NCBI RefSeq assembly: GCF_000024545.1
Contig: NC_013947.1
Location: 5,208,001-5,272,000 of the forward strand
Direction: 5' to 3'
From: Stackebrandtia nassauensis DSM 44728
GTDB lineage: Bacteria > Actinomycetota > Actinomycetes > Mycobacteriales > Micromonosporaceae
Length of the DNA: 64,000 nt
Positions 11,574 through 49,674 of this stretch are shown here, in pieces. Position numbers and translations under genes: made by a program. Numbering within the stretch: the stretch's first letter is position 1; each line of letters starts with the position of its first letter. The notes under the pieces were generated by a model that was not told the origin of the DNA, did no database searches, and was given only the letters and a program-made list of their open reading frames with translations.

Positions 11574-12557
11574 ATGGGAGACGAACTCCAGAGCAAGGTC
11601 GACGGCATCCTCAACCAGATCCCGCAGTACTCCAGCGGCGACGTGGAGTCCTGGGCGGAGAAGGTCAAGTCCGCCGCCAAGGCCAAGAACGGCACCACCG
11701 ACTACCCCTACCCGGACGAGTACTTCGAGTGGATCGTCCCGTACTTCGAACGGTTCCACCAGCGGATGCCCAGCACCGCCGAGGCCATGGTCATCGAACT
11801 GGGCGTGGTGCGGGAGAAGATCCTGTCCGCGGCCCCGATCATCAAGGCCGGAACCGACAAGGCGCTGACCAACTGGGAGGGCTACGCCGCCAACTCGTTC
11901 ACGAACTTCTACATCGGCGCGTTCACGGCCAGCCCCAGCTGCATCGACGCGCAGGTCGCGGTCATCGACGAGCTGCGCGCAGCACTGTGGGTCTACATCG
12001 GAATCCTCAAGAGCATGCGCAGTGAGGCCGTCGAGATCGCCAAGGCCACCATCGCGACCTTCGAGTCCTGGGACGAGTGGCTGTGGTTCGGGTCCGACGG
12101 GCAGTTCCTGGCGGGCATCGCCGGTGCCGTGGCCACCCTGTTCGGCGTGATCACCGCGACCGCCACGGCGGGCGTGTCACTGGCCATCATCGGCGGCGCC
12201 GCCTCGGCGTCCAACGCCTTCATCGCGAAGCACAGGGCCGACGAGGAGGCCAGCAAGAAGACCATCGGCGGCGACACCGTCGCCGACGTCCTCAACAACA
12301 TGGCCGACCGGCTCAACGAGCTCGACACCCGCTGCACCGACGCCGAGGACGCCATCGCCACCGACCTGTCCAGCAGTGTCGAAGCCGTCGGCAAGATCCT
12401 CGCCAGCGACAACGCCACCACGCTGATGCGATTGGTGCCCAACGAGATCGGCGACGACAACCCGCTCGACGCCGGTCAGCCGGGTAACACCGACACCACC
12501 GACGTCACCGACCCCAAGGACAATCCGATCCCCGAGTTCCGGCCCACGGCCGAGTAG
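11574..12557 (+). CDS. WXG-like large helical protein, candidate type VII substrate
   Basis: 327 residues, ATG behind AAGGACGAGGA. Residues 1-180 are helical with a central NWEGYAANSF (about residue 101), a W-x-G turn as in WXG100 proteins. Residues about 180-215 hold a glycine/alanine-rich hydrophobic hairpin (FLAGIAGAVATLFGVI, then VSLAIIGGAASASNAFI), followed by a coiled-coil-like helix with VADVLNNMADRLNELD and a disordered acidic Pro/Asp tail. The hydrophobic hairpin flanked by long helices resembles LXG or toxin-like type VII effectors, but no catalytic domain is visible. It is the second gene of a two-gene unit divergent from a YbaB-like gene. The function is not established. Confidence 0.6.
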   Translation: MGDELQSKVDGILNQIPQYSSGDVESWAEKVKSAAKAKNGTTDYPYPDEYFEWIVPYFERFHQRMPSTAEAMVIELGVVREKILSAAPIIKAGTDKALTNWEGYAANSFTNFYIGAFTASPSCIDAQVAVIDELRAALWVYIGILKSMRSEAVEIAKATIATFESWDEWLWFGSDGQFLAGIAGAVATLFGVITATATAGVSLAIIGGAASASNAFIAKHRADEEASKKTIGGDTVADVLNNMADRLNELDTRCTDAEDAIATDLSSSVEAVGKILASDNATTLMRLVPNEIGDDNPLDAGQPGNTDTTDVTDPKDNPIPEFRPTAE

Positions 12558-12561
12558 CGGT

Positions 12562-12596
12562 GGGCCGGGCCCCGGCGAAGAACCGGGGCCCGGCCC
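12562..12596. terminator. Strong hairpin between convergent genes
   Basis: A perfect 14-bp stem (12562-12575 and 12583-12596) with loop CGAAGAA, between the WXG-like gene and the end of leuS; it can serve both strands. Confidence 0.75.
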
Positions 12597-12600
12597 GTCG

Positions 12601-15453
12601 TCACACGACGATCGACACCATCCGGCCGGACACGACGATGACCTTCTTCGGCTCCCGGCCGCTCAGCGCCGCGACGATCTTCTCGGTGCCCAGGGCGGCT
12701 TCCCGGACCGCGTCCTGGTCGGCCTCGGCCGAGACCTCGACACGGTCGCGGACCTTGCCGTTGATCTGCACCGGGTAGGTGACGGTCTCCACGACCAGGA
12801 ACCGCTCGTCGGCGACCGGGAAGTCGGCGTTGGCCAGCGATTCGCCGTGCCCCAGCCGACGCCACAGTTCCTCGGCGACATGCGGGACGAACGGCGCCGC
12901 CATCAGCACCTGGGCCTCGGCCACCGAGCGCGGCACCTCGGCCAGGCCGACGACGTGGTTGTTCAGCGTGATCAGTTTGGCGATCGCGGTGTTGACCCGC
13001 AGCGCGTCCATATCGGCGTGGACGCCGTCGATGGTGCGGTGCAGCAGCTTCTGGGTCTCGGCGTCGGCCTCGACGTCGGCGACCTTGACCTCGCCGGTCT
13101 CCTCGTCGATGATGTTGCGCCACAGGCGTTGCAGGAACCGCTGCGAGCCGACGACCGCCCTAGTCTCCCAGGGACGGGACACCTCCAGCGGGCCCATGCT
13201 CATCTCGTACAACCGGAAGGTGTCGGCGCCGTACTGCTCGCACATCTGGTCGGGCGTGACCACGTTGCGCTGCGACTTGCCCATCTTGCCGTACTCGCGG
13301 TTGACCTCCTGGCCGTCGTGGAAGAACCGGCCGTCCTCCTCCACGACCTCGGCCGCCGGTACGTAGGCGCCGCGCGAGTCGGTGTACGCGTAGGCCTGGA
13401 TCATGCCCTGGTGGATCAGCTTGCGGAACGGTTCCCGGCTGGAGACGTGCCCCAGGTCGAACAGGACCTTCTGCCAGAACCGGTCGTACAGCAGGTGCAG
13501 GACCGCGTGCTCGGAGCCGCCGACGTACAGGTCGACGCCGCCGCAGTCGGTCTCGGAGTTCGGCCCCATCCAGTACTTCTCGTTGACGGGGTCGGCCAGG
13601 GCCTCCTCGTTGAACGGGTCGGTGTAACGCAGCTGGTACCAGCAGGAACCGGCCCAGTTGGGCATGGTGTTGACCTCGCGCCGATACTTCTTCGGCCCGT
13701 CGCCCAAATCCAGGGTGACCTCGACCCAGTCGCCCGCGCGGCCCAGCGGCGGCTCGGGCGCGGAGTCGGCGTCGTCGGGTTCGTAGGTCTTGGGCGAGAA
13801 GTCGTCCAGTTCGGGCAGTTCGACCGGCAGCATCGACTCCGGCAGCGCCACCGGCAGTCCGGTCTCGTCGAACACGATCGGGAACGGCTCGCCCCAGTAA
13901 CGCTGCCGCGAGAACAGCCAGTCCCGCAGCCGGTAGGTGGTGGTGCCCTCGCCGTGCCCCGACGCGGTCAGCCACTCGGTGATGGCCTGTTTGGCCTCGA
14001 CGACGCCCATCCCGTTCAGGCTGGGCGCCCCGGTCGTCACGGCCTCGGCGGGCGAGTTGACCGCCGGGCCCTCGCCGGTGTAGGCCTTGCCCTCGAAGCC
14101 CTCCGACGGCTGCACGGTGCGGATGATCGGCAGCCCGAATGCCTCGGCGAACTCCCAGTCGCGTTCGTCCTGGCCCGGCACCGCCATGATCGCGCCGGTG
14201 CCGTAACCGGCCAGCACGTAGTCGGCGATGAACACCGGCACCGAGTCGCCGCTCACCGGGTTGGTGGCGTAGGCGCCGATGAAGACGCCGGTCTTCTCCT
14301 TGGCGTCGGCCTGCCGCTCCACGTCGGTCTTGGCGGCGGCGAAGGCCCGGTAGGCGGCGACCGCCTCGGCGGGGGTCGCCTCGCCGGAGGTCCAGCGCGC
14401 GTCGGTACCGGCGGGCCAGGTCGCGGCCGTCAGCGTGTCGACCAGTTCGTGCTCGGGCGCCAGCACCATGTAGGTGGCGCCGAACAGGGTGTCGGGCCGG
14501 GTGGTGAACACCGTGATGTCCCCGGCCTCGGTGCCGAAGCGGACGTGGGCGCCGGTGGAGCGACCGATCCAGTTGCGCTGCAACCGGATCGTCGAGTCGG
14601 GCCAGTCGACGTCGTCCAGGTCCTCCAGCAGCCGGTCCGCGTAGGCGGTGATCCGCATCATCCACTGCTTCAGCTTGCGGGTGTATACCGGGAAGTTGCC
14701 GCGCTCGCTGCGCCCCTCCGCGGTTACCTCCTCATTGGACAGGACGGTGCCCAGGCCGGGACACCAGTTGACCGGCGCCTCGGAGACGTAGGCCAGCCGG
14801 TGGTCGTCCACGATACGGCGGCGCTCCACCTCGGACAGTTCACTCCAGGCGCGGCCGTCGGGAGTGGCGCGGGTCCCGGCGTCGAACTCGGCGATCAGCT
14901 CCGCGATCGGACGGGCCTTACGGGCTTCGGTGTCGTACCAGGAGTTGAAGATCTGCAGGAAGATCCACTGCGTCCACTTGTAGTAGTCGGGATCCGAGGT
15001 GGCGAAGCTGCGCACCGTGTCATAGGCCATGCCCAGCCGCCGCAGCTGCCGCCGGTAGGTGGCGATGTTGTCCTCGGTGATCTTGGCCGGGTGCTGGCCG
15101 GTGGTGATCGCGTACAGCTCCGTGGGCAGGCCGAAGGCGTCGAAACCCATCGGGTGCAGGACGTTGTACCCGGTCATGCGCTTGTACCGGGCGAAGCAGT
15201 CGGTGGCGATGTACCCGAACGGGTGCCCCACGTGCAGTCCCGCCCCCGACGGGTACGGGAACATGTCCATCACGAACAGCTTCGGGGCCCCGGCGCGCGG
15301 GTCGTCCGGATTGGCCAGTTTCCCGGTCGGGTTGGGAGCGTTGAAGACGCCGCGCTCCTCCCAGTGGTCCTGCCAGGCGGGCTCGATGCGCGCCGCCAGG
15401 GCGGCGTCATAGCGGTGCGCCGGGATGCGGTCGGCGGCGTGCGTGTCACTCAT
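12601..15453 (-). CDS. leuS: Leucyl-tRNA synthetase
   Basis: 950 residues, a normal length for bacterial LeuRS with the CP1 editing domain. It charges tRNA-Leu with leucine in the cytoplasm. The HIGH signature appears as HVGH in [16 protein letters not shown] (about residue 75) and KMSKS as KMGKS (about 725). The editing-domain threonine-rich segment ([15 protein letters not shown]) and the zinc-site region are in the expected order. ATG with AGAGGA about 6 nt upstream. About 130 bp of leader precede it, carrying a leader peptide with three Leu codons and a terminator followed by six Ts, so expression is very probably controlled by leucyl-tRNA supply through attenuation. Confidence 0.98.
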
Positions 15454-15491
15454 GAAATGTCCTCTTTATCCTTTACGCGTAGTCCGGGCAC

Positions 15492-15516
15492 AAAAAATCC
15501 CCTCACACAGGAGGGG
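15492..15516 (-). terminator. Attenuator terminator in the leuS leader
   Basis: On the minus strand the RNA reads CCCCUC, a 6-nt loop, GAGGGG, then A and six Us. It is the only hairpin noted in this window with a proper U-run. It sits 39 bp upstream of the leuS ATG and 30 bp after the leader-peptide stop. The left arm can instead pair with part of an upstream segment (see the leader peptide). Confidence 0.88.
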
Positions 15517-15546
15517 TCGCCGTGCCGTCGCGGGTTCTGCTTCGCG

Positions 15547-15585
15547 TCAGCACGGCCTCATAAGGAGCAGCACGCGCCTGGTCAT
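15547..15585 (-). CDS. leuS leader peptide, 12 aa
   Basis: The ORF encodes MTRRVLLLMRPC, with three consecutive leucine codons CTG CTC CTT. A 7-bp complementarity joins the last sense codons (GCCGTGC, 15550-15556) to GCACGGC (15519-15525). Adjacent GAGG can also pair with the CCTC of the terminator arm, forming an alternative antiterminator. A ribosome stalled at the Leu codons would favour that structure and leuS transcription; a ribosome reaching the stop would cover it and let the terminator form. The predicted promoter puts the transcription start at the A of this ATG, so the peptide is probably translated from a leaderless mRNA. The mechanism is inferred from sequence only. Confidence 0.82.
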   Translation of the reverse strand: MTRRVLLLMRPC

Positions 15586-15592
15586 GCCCCAG

Positions 15593-15621
15593 AGTCTATC
15601 GCAGCACCACACCGACGTCAT
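15593..15621 (-). promoter_or_regulatory. Predicted leuS promoter
   Basis: Minus strand: -35 ATGACG (15616-15621, four of six to TTGACA), 17-bp spacer, -10 TAGACT (15593-15598). Seven bases separate the -10 from the leader ATG, which would be the transcription start. Confidence 0.6.
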
Positions 15622-15757
15622 TCCGGTTCGGTTTCGCCCTGAAACGCCCGAACCGACCGACTCGTTGTCGAAATTTGTCCGGTCCGGTCATGCTGGCCAC
15701 CCCGAGACACCTGACACACTTGGGGATTACGACCCCTATCCCCGAAGGAGGACGCCG

Positions 15758-16765
15758 GTGTCAGCACAGCCCATCGGCACGACATCCCCGGCTGCCGCCC
15801 AGCCAATGAGCTCCACCGAGTTCAAGGCCGCCGTCGACGCCGTCATCGGCAACATCGAGCGCGTCATCGAGGGCAAGACGGCGATCGTCCGGCTGGCCTT
15901 CTCCGTGCTCCTGGCCGAGGGCCACCTGCTGATCGAGGACGTGCCAGGCGTCGGCAAGACGATGCTGGCCAAGTCGATGGCCACCACCATCCACTGCTCG
16001 GTGCGCCGGATCCAGTTCACGCCCGACCTGTTGCCCAGCGACGTCACCGGGGTGACGATCTTCAACCAGGACACCCACGAGTTCACGTTCAAACCCGGCG
16101 CGGTGTTCGCCAACCTCGTCGTGGGCGACGAGATCAACCGGGCCTCCCCCAAGACCCAGTCGGCGCTGCTGGAGTGCATGGAGGAACGCCAGGTCACCGT
16201 CGACGGCAACACCTACAAGCTGCGGGCGCCGTTCATGGTGATGGCGACCCAGAACCCGATCGAGATGGAGGGGACCTACCCGCTGCCCGAGGCGCAGCGC
16301 GACCGGTTCACCGCCCGCATCGCCATCGGCTACCCCGACGCCGCCGCCGAGCTGAAGATGCTGGACGTGCACGGCACCACCAACCCGCTCAACCAGTTGC
16401 AGCCGGTCGTCGACGAGGCCACCATCCAGCGGATGATCGAGTACGTGCGCGGCATCCACGTCTCCGACGCCATCAAGCAGTACGCGATCGCGCTGGTCAA
16501 CGCCACCCGGCAGGCGCCGGAGCTGCGGCTGGGCGCCAGTCCCCGTTCGGTGCTGCAACTGTTGCGCACCGCCCGGGCCATCGCCGCCTTCGAGGGCCGC
16601 GACTTCGTGCTCCCCGACGACGTGCAGGCGCTGTCGGTGCCGGTGCTGGCCCACCGGCTGCTTCCCACCTCGGACGCGCAGCTGGCGCACCGCACCACCG
16701 ACGCGATCATCTCCGACATCGTGCACCGGCTGCCGGTCGCCCCCGGTGCGCCCATCAGGCGCTGA
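15758..16765 (+). CDS. MoxR-family AAA+ ATPase
   Basis: 335 residues from a GTG preceded by AAGGAGG. MoxR ATPases act as chaperone-like factors that help assemble or activate partner proteins, usually encoded with DUF58 and transglutaminase-like genes as here. Walker A is GVGKTM (about residue 65), Walker B VVGDEINRAS (about 121), sensor 1 MATQNPIEMEG (about 164) and the arginine-finger region LPEAQRDRF follows. The C-terminal lid domain includes GASPRSVLQLLRTARA. The open frame continues upstream to 15425, but that part has no family similarity and overlaps the leuS leader. It is the first gene of a three-gene operon. Confidence 0.93.
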   Translation: MSAQPIGTTSPAAAQPMSSTEFKAAVDAVIGNIERVIEGKTAIVRLAFSVLLAEGHLLIEDVPGVGKTMLAKSMATTIHCSVRRIQFTPDLLPSDVTGVTIFNQDTHEFTFKPGAVFANLVVGDEINRASPKTQSALLECMEERQVTVDGNTYKLRAPFMVMATQNPIEMEGTYPLPEAQRDRFTARIAIGYPDAAAELKMLDVHGTTNPLNQLQPVVDEATIQRMIEYVRGIHVSDAIKQYAIALVNATRQAPELRLGASPRSVLQLLRTARAIAAFEGRDFVLPDDVQALSVPVLAHRLLPTSDAQLAHRTTDAIISDIVHRLPVAPGAPIRR

Positions 16766-48453: not shown

Positions 48454-49674
48454 CTATCCCGGCCCCGCGCAAGCGGCGGTCGGGACCTTCGCGTGAGCGG
48501 CCCGGTGCTCGGCCCGCCAGTCCCGCCAGGCCAGCGGGCACAGCGCCAGGATCGCGATCGCCACCACCCCGAAGGCCGAGGACAGGCTCAGTCCGGCCAC
48601 CAGCAACCCGATCAGCAGCCCGCCCACGCCGGTGCCGCCGTCGTAGGCGATGTTCCACACGATGCTGGCCAGCCCGTGCCCACCCGGCCCCGAGCGCCGG
48701 AACATCACCACCAGCGTGTCGTTCTGCAAGCCGCCGAACCCGGCCCCGTACACGGTGGCACCCACAATGGCCAGTCCGTCGAACCCGTAGAAGATCGCCA
48801 CGGCCGTGACACCCATACCCACCGCCGCGACCGCCGCCGAGGGCAACAGCATCCGCCCCGGCCCCAACCGGTCCGACACCATCCCCGACACCCACCGAGC
48901 CCCGACCAGCCCCGCCGCCATGGTCAACAGCGCCACCGCCGCCGCGTCCGGCGAGGTCAGCGCCAACGGGATGAACGTGAACATGCCCCCCAGCGCACAG
49001 GCGACCGCCGTCATCACCGTGAAGGGCCCCGACATCGCCCACAACCGTTGCCGCACACCATCCCCGGACGCTTCATCGACCGGCGTGATGTCGTCGACCC
49101 GCTTCCCCGACTGCGCCCACATCGCCGGAGCCGCCAGGATCGCCGCCACCGCGGTGAACACGAACACCGTGTCGTACCCGATCCGCTCGGCCATCGACAC
49201 GGCCAACGGCAGACTCCCGAACTGGCTCACCCCGATGGCCACCCCGTAGGCGGCGATGGCCCGCCCCCGCTGCACGGCGGGCACCAACTCCGCGGCCAGC
49301 GCGCTCCCGGCCACGGTCACCATCCCGAACCCGAACCCCCGCACTGCCGAGACGGCCAACACCCACGCCAGGTCCGTCGACAACAGATACCCGAACGTCG
49401 GCACCCCCAACAGCAACGCTCCCACCGCGAACAGGTGCCGCAACGCGAACCGCCGCAACAACCCGCCCATCCCCAACTGCAACGCCACGGTGGCGCCCAT
49501 CATCGTGGCCGTGATCGCCCCGACCCCACTGGCGCTGGTCCCGGCATCGGCCGACCACAGGGGAACGACGGACAACAGCGCCATCACGTTCGTGAAGGCA
49601 CCCAGGCTCGCGACCATCATCAGGATGAAGTCGCGCCCGGTCAATCCCAGCGGTTTGGCGACGGATGCGGACAT
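48454..49674 (-). CDS. MFS transporter
   Basis: 406 residues from ATG (MSASVAKPLGLTGRDFI); GTG at 49686 would add four. About 12 membrane helices. Motif A-like loops are GLLRRFALRHLFAVG (about residue 75) and the second-half repeat MVSDRLGPGRML (about 262). It is likely a proton-linked exporter or metabolite transporter. The gene is convergent with the SHOCT gene and its upstream region borders the DUF3817 gene, which lies on the same strand. Substrate not recognised. Confidence 0.9.
   Translation of the reverse strand: MSASVAKPLGLTGRDFILMMVASLGAFTNVMALLSVVPLWSADAGTSASGVGAITATMMGATVALQLGMGGLLRRFALRHLFAVGALLLGVPTFGYLLSTDLAWVLAVSAVRGFGFGMVTVAGSALAAELVPAVQRGRAIAAYGVAIGVSQFGSLPLAVSMAERIGYDTVFVFTAVAAILAAPAMWAQSGKRVDDITPVDEASGDGVRQRLWAMSGPFTVMTAVACALGGMFTFIPLALTSPDAAAVALLTMAAGLVGARWVSGMVSDRLGPGRMLLPSAAVAAVGMGVTAVAIFYGFDGLAIVGATVYGAGFGGLQNDTLVVMFRRSGPGGHGLASIVWNIAYDGGTGVGGLLIGLLVAGLSLSSAFGVVAIAILALCPLAWRDWRAEHRAAHAKVPTAACAGPG

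Follow-up and report, generated by a model that had tools for sequence, protein, structure and literature searches.

A putative leaderless leader-peptide attenuator upstream of leuS in Stackebrandtia nassauensis and the leucine codons avoided by the gene behind it

The leuS gene of Stackebrandtia nassauensis lies on the minus strand of the 64,000-nucleotide stretch of DNA analysed here (the window), within a genome that consists of a single contig of 6,841,557 bp. Its 950-residue product is identified as leucine--tRNA ligase by the profile TIGR00396 (E=9.7e-264). Elsewhere in the genome the LeuRS protein finds one weak partial match only (E=9.9e-11, 34% identity), and its nearest relative in a scan of named genome contigs is that of the MAG Candidatus Stackebrandtia faecavium (L003). 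A preliminary description of this DNA had placed a complete leader-peptide attenuator before the gene, with an ATG 7 nt after a -10 box, a leader ORF containing CTG CTC CTT, a hairpin and a run of six T. All of these are present, and they are listed here with the other parts of the locus.

About 15615-15621, minus strand: weak -35-like ATGACG/TGACGT (read from the sequence)
15593..15598, minus strand: -10 box TAGACT, 7 nt from the ATG at 15585 (read from the sequence)
15547..15585, minus strand: leader ORF MTRRVLLLMRPC followed by a stop, 12 codons, probably leaderless (sequence, peptides at other loci, chance control)
15562..15570, minus strand: putative sensor codons CTG CTC CTT, with CTT at 15564-15562 (last Leu codon conserved)
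15546..15556, minus strand: segment 2, GCCGTGCTGAC, 5' arm of the 2:3 stem, overlapping the leader stop codon (covariation of helix 1)
15519..15529, minus strand: segment 3, 3' arm of the stem, 2 nt short of the terminator (covariation, gap parse)
15499..15516, minus strand: terminator hairpin CCCCTC-CTGTGT-GAGGGG (terminator scan, folding, covariation of helix 2)
15492..15497, minus strand: U-tract of six T, with one A before it (read from the sequence)
15486..15491, minus strand: hexamer GTGCCC directly 3' of the U-tract (alignment A1)
12601..15453, minus strand: leuS, ATG at 15453, 64 Leu codons, none of them CTC or CTT (profile match, codon count)

The 7-bp antiterminator pairing that had been proposed between 15550-15556 and 15519-15525 is also found, GCCGTGC at 15556-15550 facing GCACGGC at 15525-15519, and the helix to which it belongs covaries. 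The folded stem comprises nine contiguous pairs and an inner 4-bp helix. In the energy model, RNA running from the leader ATG as far as the U-tract forms the 2:3 stem and the terminator, 2 nt apart, with values for each alone of -22.7 and -10.9 kcal/mol, respectively.

Of the promoter suggested previously, the -10 box TAGACT stands, while the -35 is weak and a consensus scan of positions 12000-16500 gave no promoter here. In Streptomyces lividans, -35 regions are reported to be weakly conserved, with the form nTGACn (PMC8079986). The gap between TANNNT and the leader start measures 6-7 nt in 94 of the 95 distinct leaders, in a search that demanded TANNNT and permitted gaps of 4-9 nt. This conserved spacing, together with the S. 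lividans counterpart leuL2, which is reported to be leaderless (PMC8079986), makes it probable that the leuS leader ORF is likewise leaderless, as had been suggested, with a transcription start that we infer. Leaderlessness alone is no novelty, since S. lividans is reported to have several leader ORFs of this kind (PMC8079986). At eight loci that lack the attenuator (L108, L151, L161, L162, L165, L166, L167 and L173), leuS itself was seen by eye to lie 6-7 nt after a TANNNT box; from the sequence, leuS at these loci looks leaderless, promoter and leaderless start having been retained in the absence of the attenuator.

The leuS loci compared comprise the best 80 of 381 named-contig matches, the locus of the genome itself and those of 30 relatives; L002, another synthetase, was left out, a count for L227 made on the wrong strand was discarded, and some organisms are counted twice (e.g. 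L003 and L084). A pattern composed of TANNNT, a gap of 4-9 nt, ATG or GTG and a short ORF with LL occurs at 99 of 110 leuS loci, the present one included, a count that leans to close kin because the 80 named loci are the nearest of the 381. Among the 11 misses, L071 has no upstream DNA, four were recovered by a covariance model and six are without the element, and removal of four duplicates leaves 95 distinct leaders. A stricter search, with a gap of 6-7 nt, finds the arrangement in 101 of 108 leuS upstreams versus none of their 108 reverse complements, against a chance level of 0.28 per 108 (mean of 50 Markov shuffles), and when LLL is required the figures are 80 of 108 upstreams versus none among reverse complements and shuffles. 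The leader peptide has 12 residues in 64 of the 95 distinct leaders, and in 94 of 99 parsed loci the 8 nt past the stem include 5-7 T. The comparison with related genomes that the preliminary description had proposed as a check finds the Leu codons, the hairpin and the U-run conserved at most leuS loci.

In alignment A1, which contains 50 leaders, helix 1 (the 2:3 stem) is paired in 96.0% of cells with 6 of 10 pairs changed on both sides, and helix 2 (the terminator) in 93.4% of cells with 5 of 7 pairs so changed; jointly, the two helices are paired in 94.9% of cells and 11 of 17 pairs have changed on both sides. On each of five measures, none of 500 shuffles reaches these values, and slid versions of the helices pair 38-56% of cells. 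A covariance model, R1, built from 50 sequences with the window's own element among them, has a single match at E<=1 in the 6.84-Mb genome, which is the leuS leader, and it gives 71.7 bits to the Streptomyces locus L049, which lies outside the model. Matches at E<=0.001 occur in 22 of 296 genomes across the phylum (the present genome included), in a survey whose stricter filters lost some weak matches. Sixteen of these 22 are directly upstream of leuS and the other six, all weak (E 1.3e-5 to 8.4e-4), precede the acetolactate synthase gene ilvB, identified by profile in one case and by 65-72% identity to the genome's own ilvB piece in all six.

Attenuators of leuS were predicted in Streptomyces avermitilis and S. 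coelicolor by Seliverstov et al. in 2005, who term them classical (PMC1262725), and the 2021 reannotation of S. lividans TK24 places the leaderless leuL2, MRAVRLLLSEPR, before leuS, with a hairpin and uridines (PMC8079986). This exact peptide occurs at ten of the Streptomyces loci examined here. The kind of attenuator is therefore already known, and the Stackebrandtia element belongs to it, sharing the 12-codon LLL leader, the hairpin and the uridines (PMC1262725, PMC8079986). Five Streptomyces elements (L052, L063, L068, L075 and L080) align with it in A1 in position, leader, stem and terminator, but differ in having a GCCGCGC/GCGCGGC stem, mostly CTT CTG CTT as Leu codons, and CATTTC in place of RTGYCC. 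The parts of the text of PMC1262725 and PMC8079986 available to us make no mention of a rule for CTT or of codon use in leuS, and in partial coverage of the literature no paper was found on leuS leader peptides outside Streptomyces (Micromonospora).

The leaders of ilvB in the relatives follow the same flush plan, with a gap between stem and terminator of -3 to +5 nt in the 25 of 30 loci that were resolved (gaps of -3 to +8 were searched); in two of these the parse has stem and terminator sharing 1-3 bases. The genome's own ilvB leader (L174, near 4641525), which was not parsed but read by eye, contains GTA GTA CTT ACC TAG and a stem flush with its terminator. The nearest published mechanism is the 'fast attenuator' of Corynebacterium glutamicum ilvBNC, whose leader begins about 1 nt from the transcript start and employs CUU and GUA as control codons (PMC11857589). 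In common with the leuS element, its antiterminator and terminator are adjacent; however, the two hairpins of ilvBNC share a GCC trinucleotide, whereas those of the leuS element share no base, and the gene controlled is another (PMC11857589). Mycobacterial ilvB1NC similarly carries an upstream ORF with branched-chain codons and a terminator, and replacement of its LVVI codons by AAAA is reported to have abolished induction, but it differs in the gene, in its 166-nt leader and in structures proposed to be mutually exclusive (PMC13236596). The E. coli leaders leuL, thrL, trpL and hisL also combine regulatory codons, a stem and a terminator, but there the 5' arm of the terminator is sequestered when the ribosome stalls (mostly 0.18-0.33 free, as detailed below).

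The last Leu codon of the leader is CTT in 94 of the 95 distinct leaders and CTC in the remaining one, and the penultimate is CTC in 41, CTT in 36 and CTG in 18; in the leuS bodies behind the same loci, CTT and CTC make up 0.37% and 3.0% of Leu codons. Where CTT has been lost, CTC was found instead in the cases seen (L013, L149, L156, L158 and L127). The leaders of family group f105 (L149, L156 and L158) read CTC CTC CTC, have weak model scores of 22-31 bits and stand before leuS genes with 31-35% CUC/CUU. The genome encodes one tRNA-Leu gene each for the anticodons CAA, TAA, GAG, CAG and TAG, among ten long tRNAs that were read out of 45 tRNA matches; these come from a tRNA family search, used in place of a sequence pattern that matched a reversed control more often. 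Codons CUC and CUU are read by tRNA-Leu(GAG). Modelling of E. coli indicates that, on leucine starvation, the most variable Leu codons are CUU, CUC and CUA (PMC3783181), with which the CTT and CTC sensor codons would fit by analogy, and a CUA-to-CUG change in the leu leader of Salmonella typhimurium is cited as lowering sensitivity (PMC1183508). The rule for CTT, the codon avoidance of leuS described below and the plan common to ilvB are absent from the earlier reading of this DNA.

The geometry of the element departs from that of the textbook attenuator. The 2:3 stem and the terminator arm are separated by 0-4 nt and share no bases in 98 parsed loci (parser range -2 to +6; the 99th, L019, was mis-parsed and left out). 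In partition functions the two helices co-form with a probability of about 1. The 5th percentile of terminator probability is 0.998 without a ribosome, again 0.998 for a stall at Leu codon 1, and 0.829 when segment 2 is masked, such that masking does not favour the terminator. Besides L019, four outliers (L011, L049, L065 and L098) fall below 0.7 in some state. A second folding test considered transcripts ending just before the 3' arm of the terminator (n=98), with the edges of the ribosome footprint taken from general knowledge. The 5' arm of the terminator was free with a median of 0.967, 0.935 and 0.827 for stalls at the first, second and third Leu codon and 0.638 for the stop state. By the same script, the stalled E. 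coli thr, trp, leu and his leaders leave this arm free at 0.18, 0.29, 0.33 and 0.31 (for a stall at the last codon concerned, 0.47 in thr and 0.40 in his), and in the stop state at 0.99, 0.97, 0.99 and 0.32. The test thus recognises classical exchange in three of the E. coli leaders (thr, trp and leu), while his does not switch; it does not recognise it in the leuS element, for which the direction from stalled to stop is opposite to that of the three.

These results bear on how the element would work. We consider it likely that the element attenuates transcription of leuS through a leaderless leader-peptide ORF, and its reading in the preliminary description as a ribosome-mediated attenuator of leucine type is supported by the conserved Leu codons, spacing, stem and terminator. 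A ribosome would begin at the 5'-terminal AUG of the leader. With ample leucyl-tRNA it would reach the UGA and cover segment 2, so that the 2:3 stem would be barred and the terminator would halt transcription. In a shortage of leucyl-tRNA, above all of tRNA-Leu(GAG), it would stall within CTG CTC CTT, and the 2:3 stem could then form against the base of the terminator, allowing RNA polymerase to read through into leuS. As stem and terminator have no base in common, the stem would act by adjacency and not by taking bases of the terminator: a rigid helix abutting the terminator might impede closure of the terminator's final pairs inside the RNA exit channel, or the two might compete at their boundary. 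The response to leucine and the antiterminating role of the stem are both inferred. In favour of the attenuator we count its presence at 99 of 110 loci, the chance control, the covariation, the 16 of 22 model matches before leuS and the further six before ilvB, an operon already thought to be attenuated. Against it stand the co-formation of stem and terminator, the 5' arm left free when the ribosome stalls and the leuS medians above 0.10 CUC/CUU in 8 of 18 family groups that have the element. A ribosome at the last CTT would, on the footprint size we assume, also hide segment 2 over roughly its first 5 nt. A final point against is that changes of the regulatory codons in the S. coelicolor ilvB leader are cited as being without effect on regulation (PMC1262725).

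Other mechanisms were weighed against this one. In the classical scheme of E. coli trp, thr, leu and his, the 2:3 stem would extend into the 5' arm of the terminator and exclude it, and the general order of leader, 2:3 stem and terminator agrees with this, as do the term classical applied to the Streptomyces elements (PMC1262725) and the mutual exclusion proposed for ilvB1 (PMC13236596). Such an extension had been claimed for the present element, but in two registers at 50 loci it pairs 29.6% and 39.5% of cells, no better than shuffled, and the extension is rejected. Strand exchange is further disfavoured by the absence of shared bases across the 0-4 nt gap and by the terminator arm that stays free when the ribosome stalls. 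The extending bases would in addition presumably lie beneath the stalled ribosome. The trp/his/leu-type exchange put forward previously is thus not supported, on folding models and alignment, for this widespread actinobacterial attenuator, and we regard it as quite improbable. The 95 distinct leaders form a natural data set against it.

The inverse logic, in which the 2:3 stem would serve for pausing or as an anti-antiterminator, a stall at the last CTT frees segment 3 to hinder the terminator and release of the ribosome restores the stem and termination, is unlikely in our view. It would suit the start of segment 2 only 5 nt after the last CTT, with no gaps between them in A1, the lesser freedom of the terminator arm when segment 2 is masked (0.64), the pairing of segment 3 with the terminator loop in several folds and the hairpin called an antiantiterminator in C. 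glutamicum ilvBNC (PMC11857589). As a conserved structure, however, the pairing of segment 3 with the loop is ruled out by missing covariation (86.8% of cells versus 87.7% shuffled, 22 of 50 leaders being unpaired at one pair); moreover, the terminator still wins at most loci once its 3' arm is present, and segment 2 would also be hidden when the ribosome stands on the stop codon. A T-box, another described RNA family, or a constitutive terminator that stands beside an ORF by chance would be a scarcely credible explanation. T-boxes regulate many synthetase genes in Firmicutes (PMC1262725), but no Rfam family, the T-box included, matches the 64-kb window at gathering score, which bears out the earlier dismissal of a T-box, and the chance controls and the covariation argue against the remainder. 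At 12 leuS loci without the element, Rfam gave no match at E<=0.5.

The antitermination by adjacency favoured here concerns the leader, and the gene behind it shows a further property, which we consider the most interesting part of the locus and worth following. None of the 64 Leu codons of leuS is CUC or CUU, compared with a share of 23.4% in a sample of the genome (322 predicted ORFs, drawn from the window and from twenty further stretches of 20 kb), and of the 95 ORFs that have 40 or more Leu codons none has a lower share than leuS and one equals it. In a first set of genes the median CUC/CUU share is 0.0 for 117 leuS with the element, 0.21 for 13 without it and 0.32 for 30 ilvB pieces; in a second and wider set, which overlaps the first, it is 0.014 for 77 with and 0.21 for 42 without. 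By family group, medians of at most 0.10 are found in 10 of 18 groups with the element versus 1 of 13 without (Fisher p=0.008), and a tree-corrected regression over 118 of 119 leuS (one protein below 400 aa left out) keeps the effect, the slope after arcsine transformation being -0.28 with p=4e-6 under full Brownian correction; these p values are descriptive, because the CUC/CUU grouping was picked after seeing the leaders and the sets overlap. Full Brownian correction was the best fit of six lambda values, and element status changes 13 times by parsimony.

The exceptions lie on both sides. Among groups with the element, f10, f14, f16, f17, f50p, f105 and f118 have medians of 0.29-0.37 and f31p of 0.15, and among those without it f96 has a median of 0.023, five of its nine leuS having at most 0.023 CUC/CUU. 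Depletion and attenuator are linked, not inseparable. The five f96 genes (L332, L334, L336, L350 and L352) show no match to the model or to Rfam; they possibly have another regulator or have lost the attenuator. The MFS-transporter-like gene at 48454-49674 of the window (minus strand), with CUC or CUU at none of its 48 Leu codons, is the one that ties with leuS.

One explanation of the codon pattern is that CTT is fixed in the leader for reasons of RNA sequence and not as a codon, the avoidance in leuS being the usual codon bias that goes with high expression. In its favour, 15 of 30 ilvB upstreams likewise carry CTTA with a stop after it, and both the element-less f96 and the 8 of 18 element-bearing groups without strong depletion would suit this account. 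We nevertheless hold it to be rather unlikely. Of 18 codon families, Leu alone is clearly shifted when 22 element-bearing leuS are compared with ilvB of the same genomes and 13 element-less leuS, two other synthetase ORFs of the genome use CUC/CUU at 30 of 91 and 19 of 51 Leu codons, the association survives tree correction, and it is CTC that replaces CTT where this is lost. The alternative that we advance, tentatively and at somewhat less than even confidence, is a sense-and-spare arrangement in some actinobacterial lineages, whereby the attenuator senses the tRNA-Leu that reads CUC and CUU and leuS has been cleared of these codons, the switch of flush hairpins, with the antiterminator against the terminator base, being common to leuS and ilvB. 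Clearing leuS of CUC and CUU would leave the rescue enzyme translatable while the sensed tRNA is empty. In E. coli, leaders are reported to use starvation-sensitive codons, leuL being sensitive and the structural genes behind it robust, and selective charging of isoacceptors has been shown for biosynthetic operons; in the parts of these sources available to us, no synthetase gene that has shed its own sensor codons is described, the word 'synthetase' occurring 0 times in that of PMC3783181 (PMC1183508, PMC3783181). The codon signature ties what the leader senses to synonymous codon choice in the controlled gene, and the idea offers a mark, readable from genomes, for genes that need to be translated in starvation.

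Two further features of the leader were observed. The hexamer RTGYCC just 3' of the U-tract is kept in many leuS leaders of Micromonosporaceae type, and letters resembling GTTGCCC follow many ilvB terminators. A reading of RTGYCC as the start of a second upstream ORF, with the 3' arm of the terminator as Shine-Dalgarno sequence, was dropped because only 26 of 84 NTG candidates are in the leuS frame and their ends scatter. The terminator loop CTGYGY (15505-15510 in the window) is conserved in A1 and resembles an RNA polymerase pause consensus, TGYG; its distance of 11-12 nt from the 2:3 stem is that expected of a hairpin pause site.
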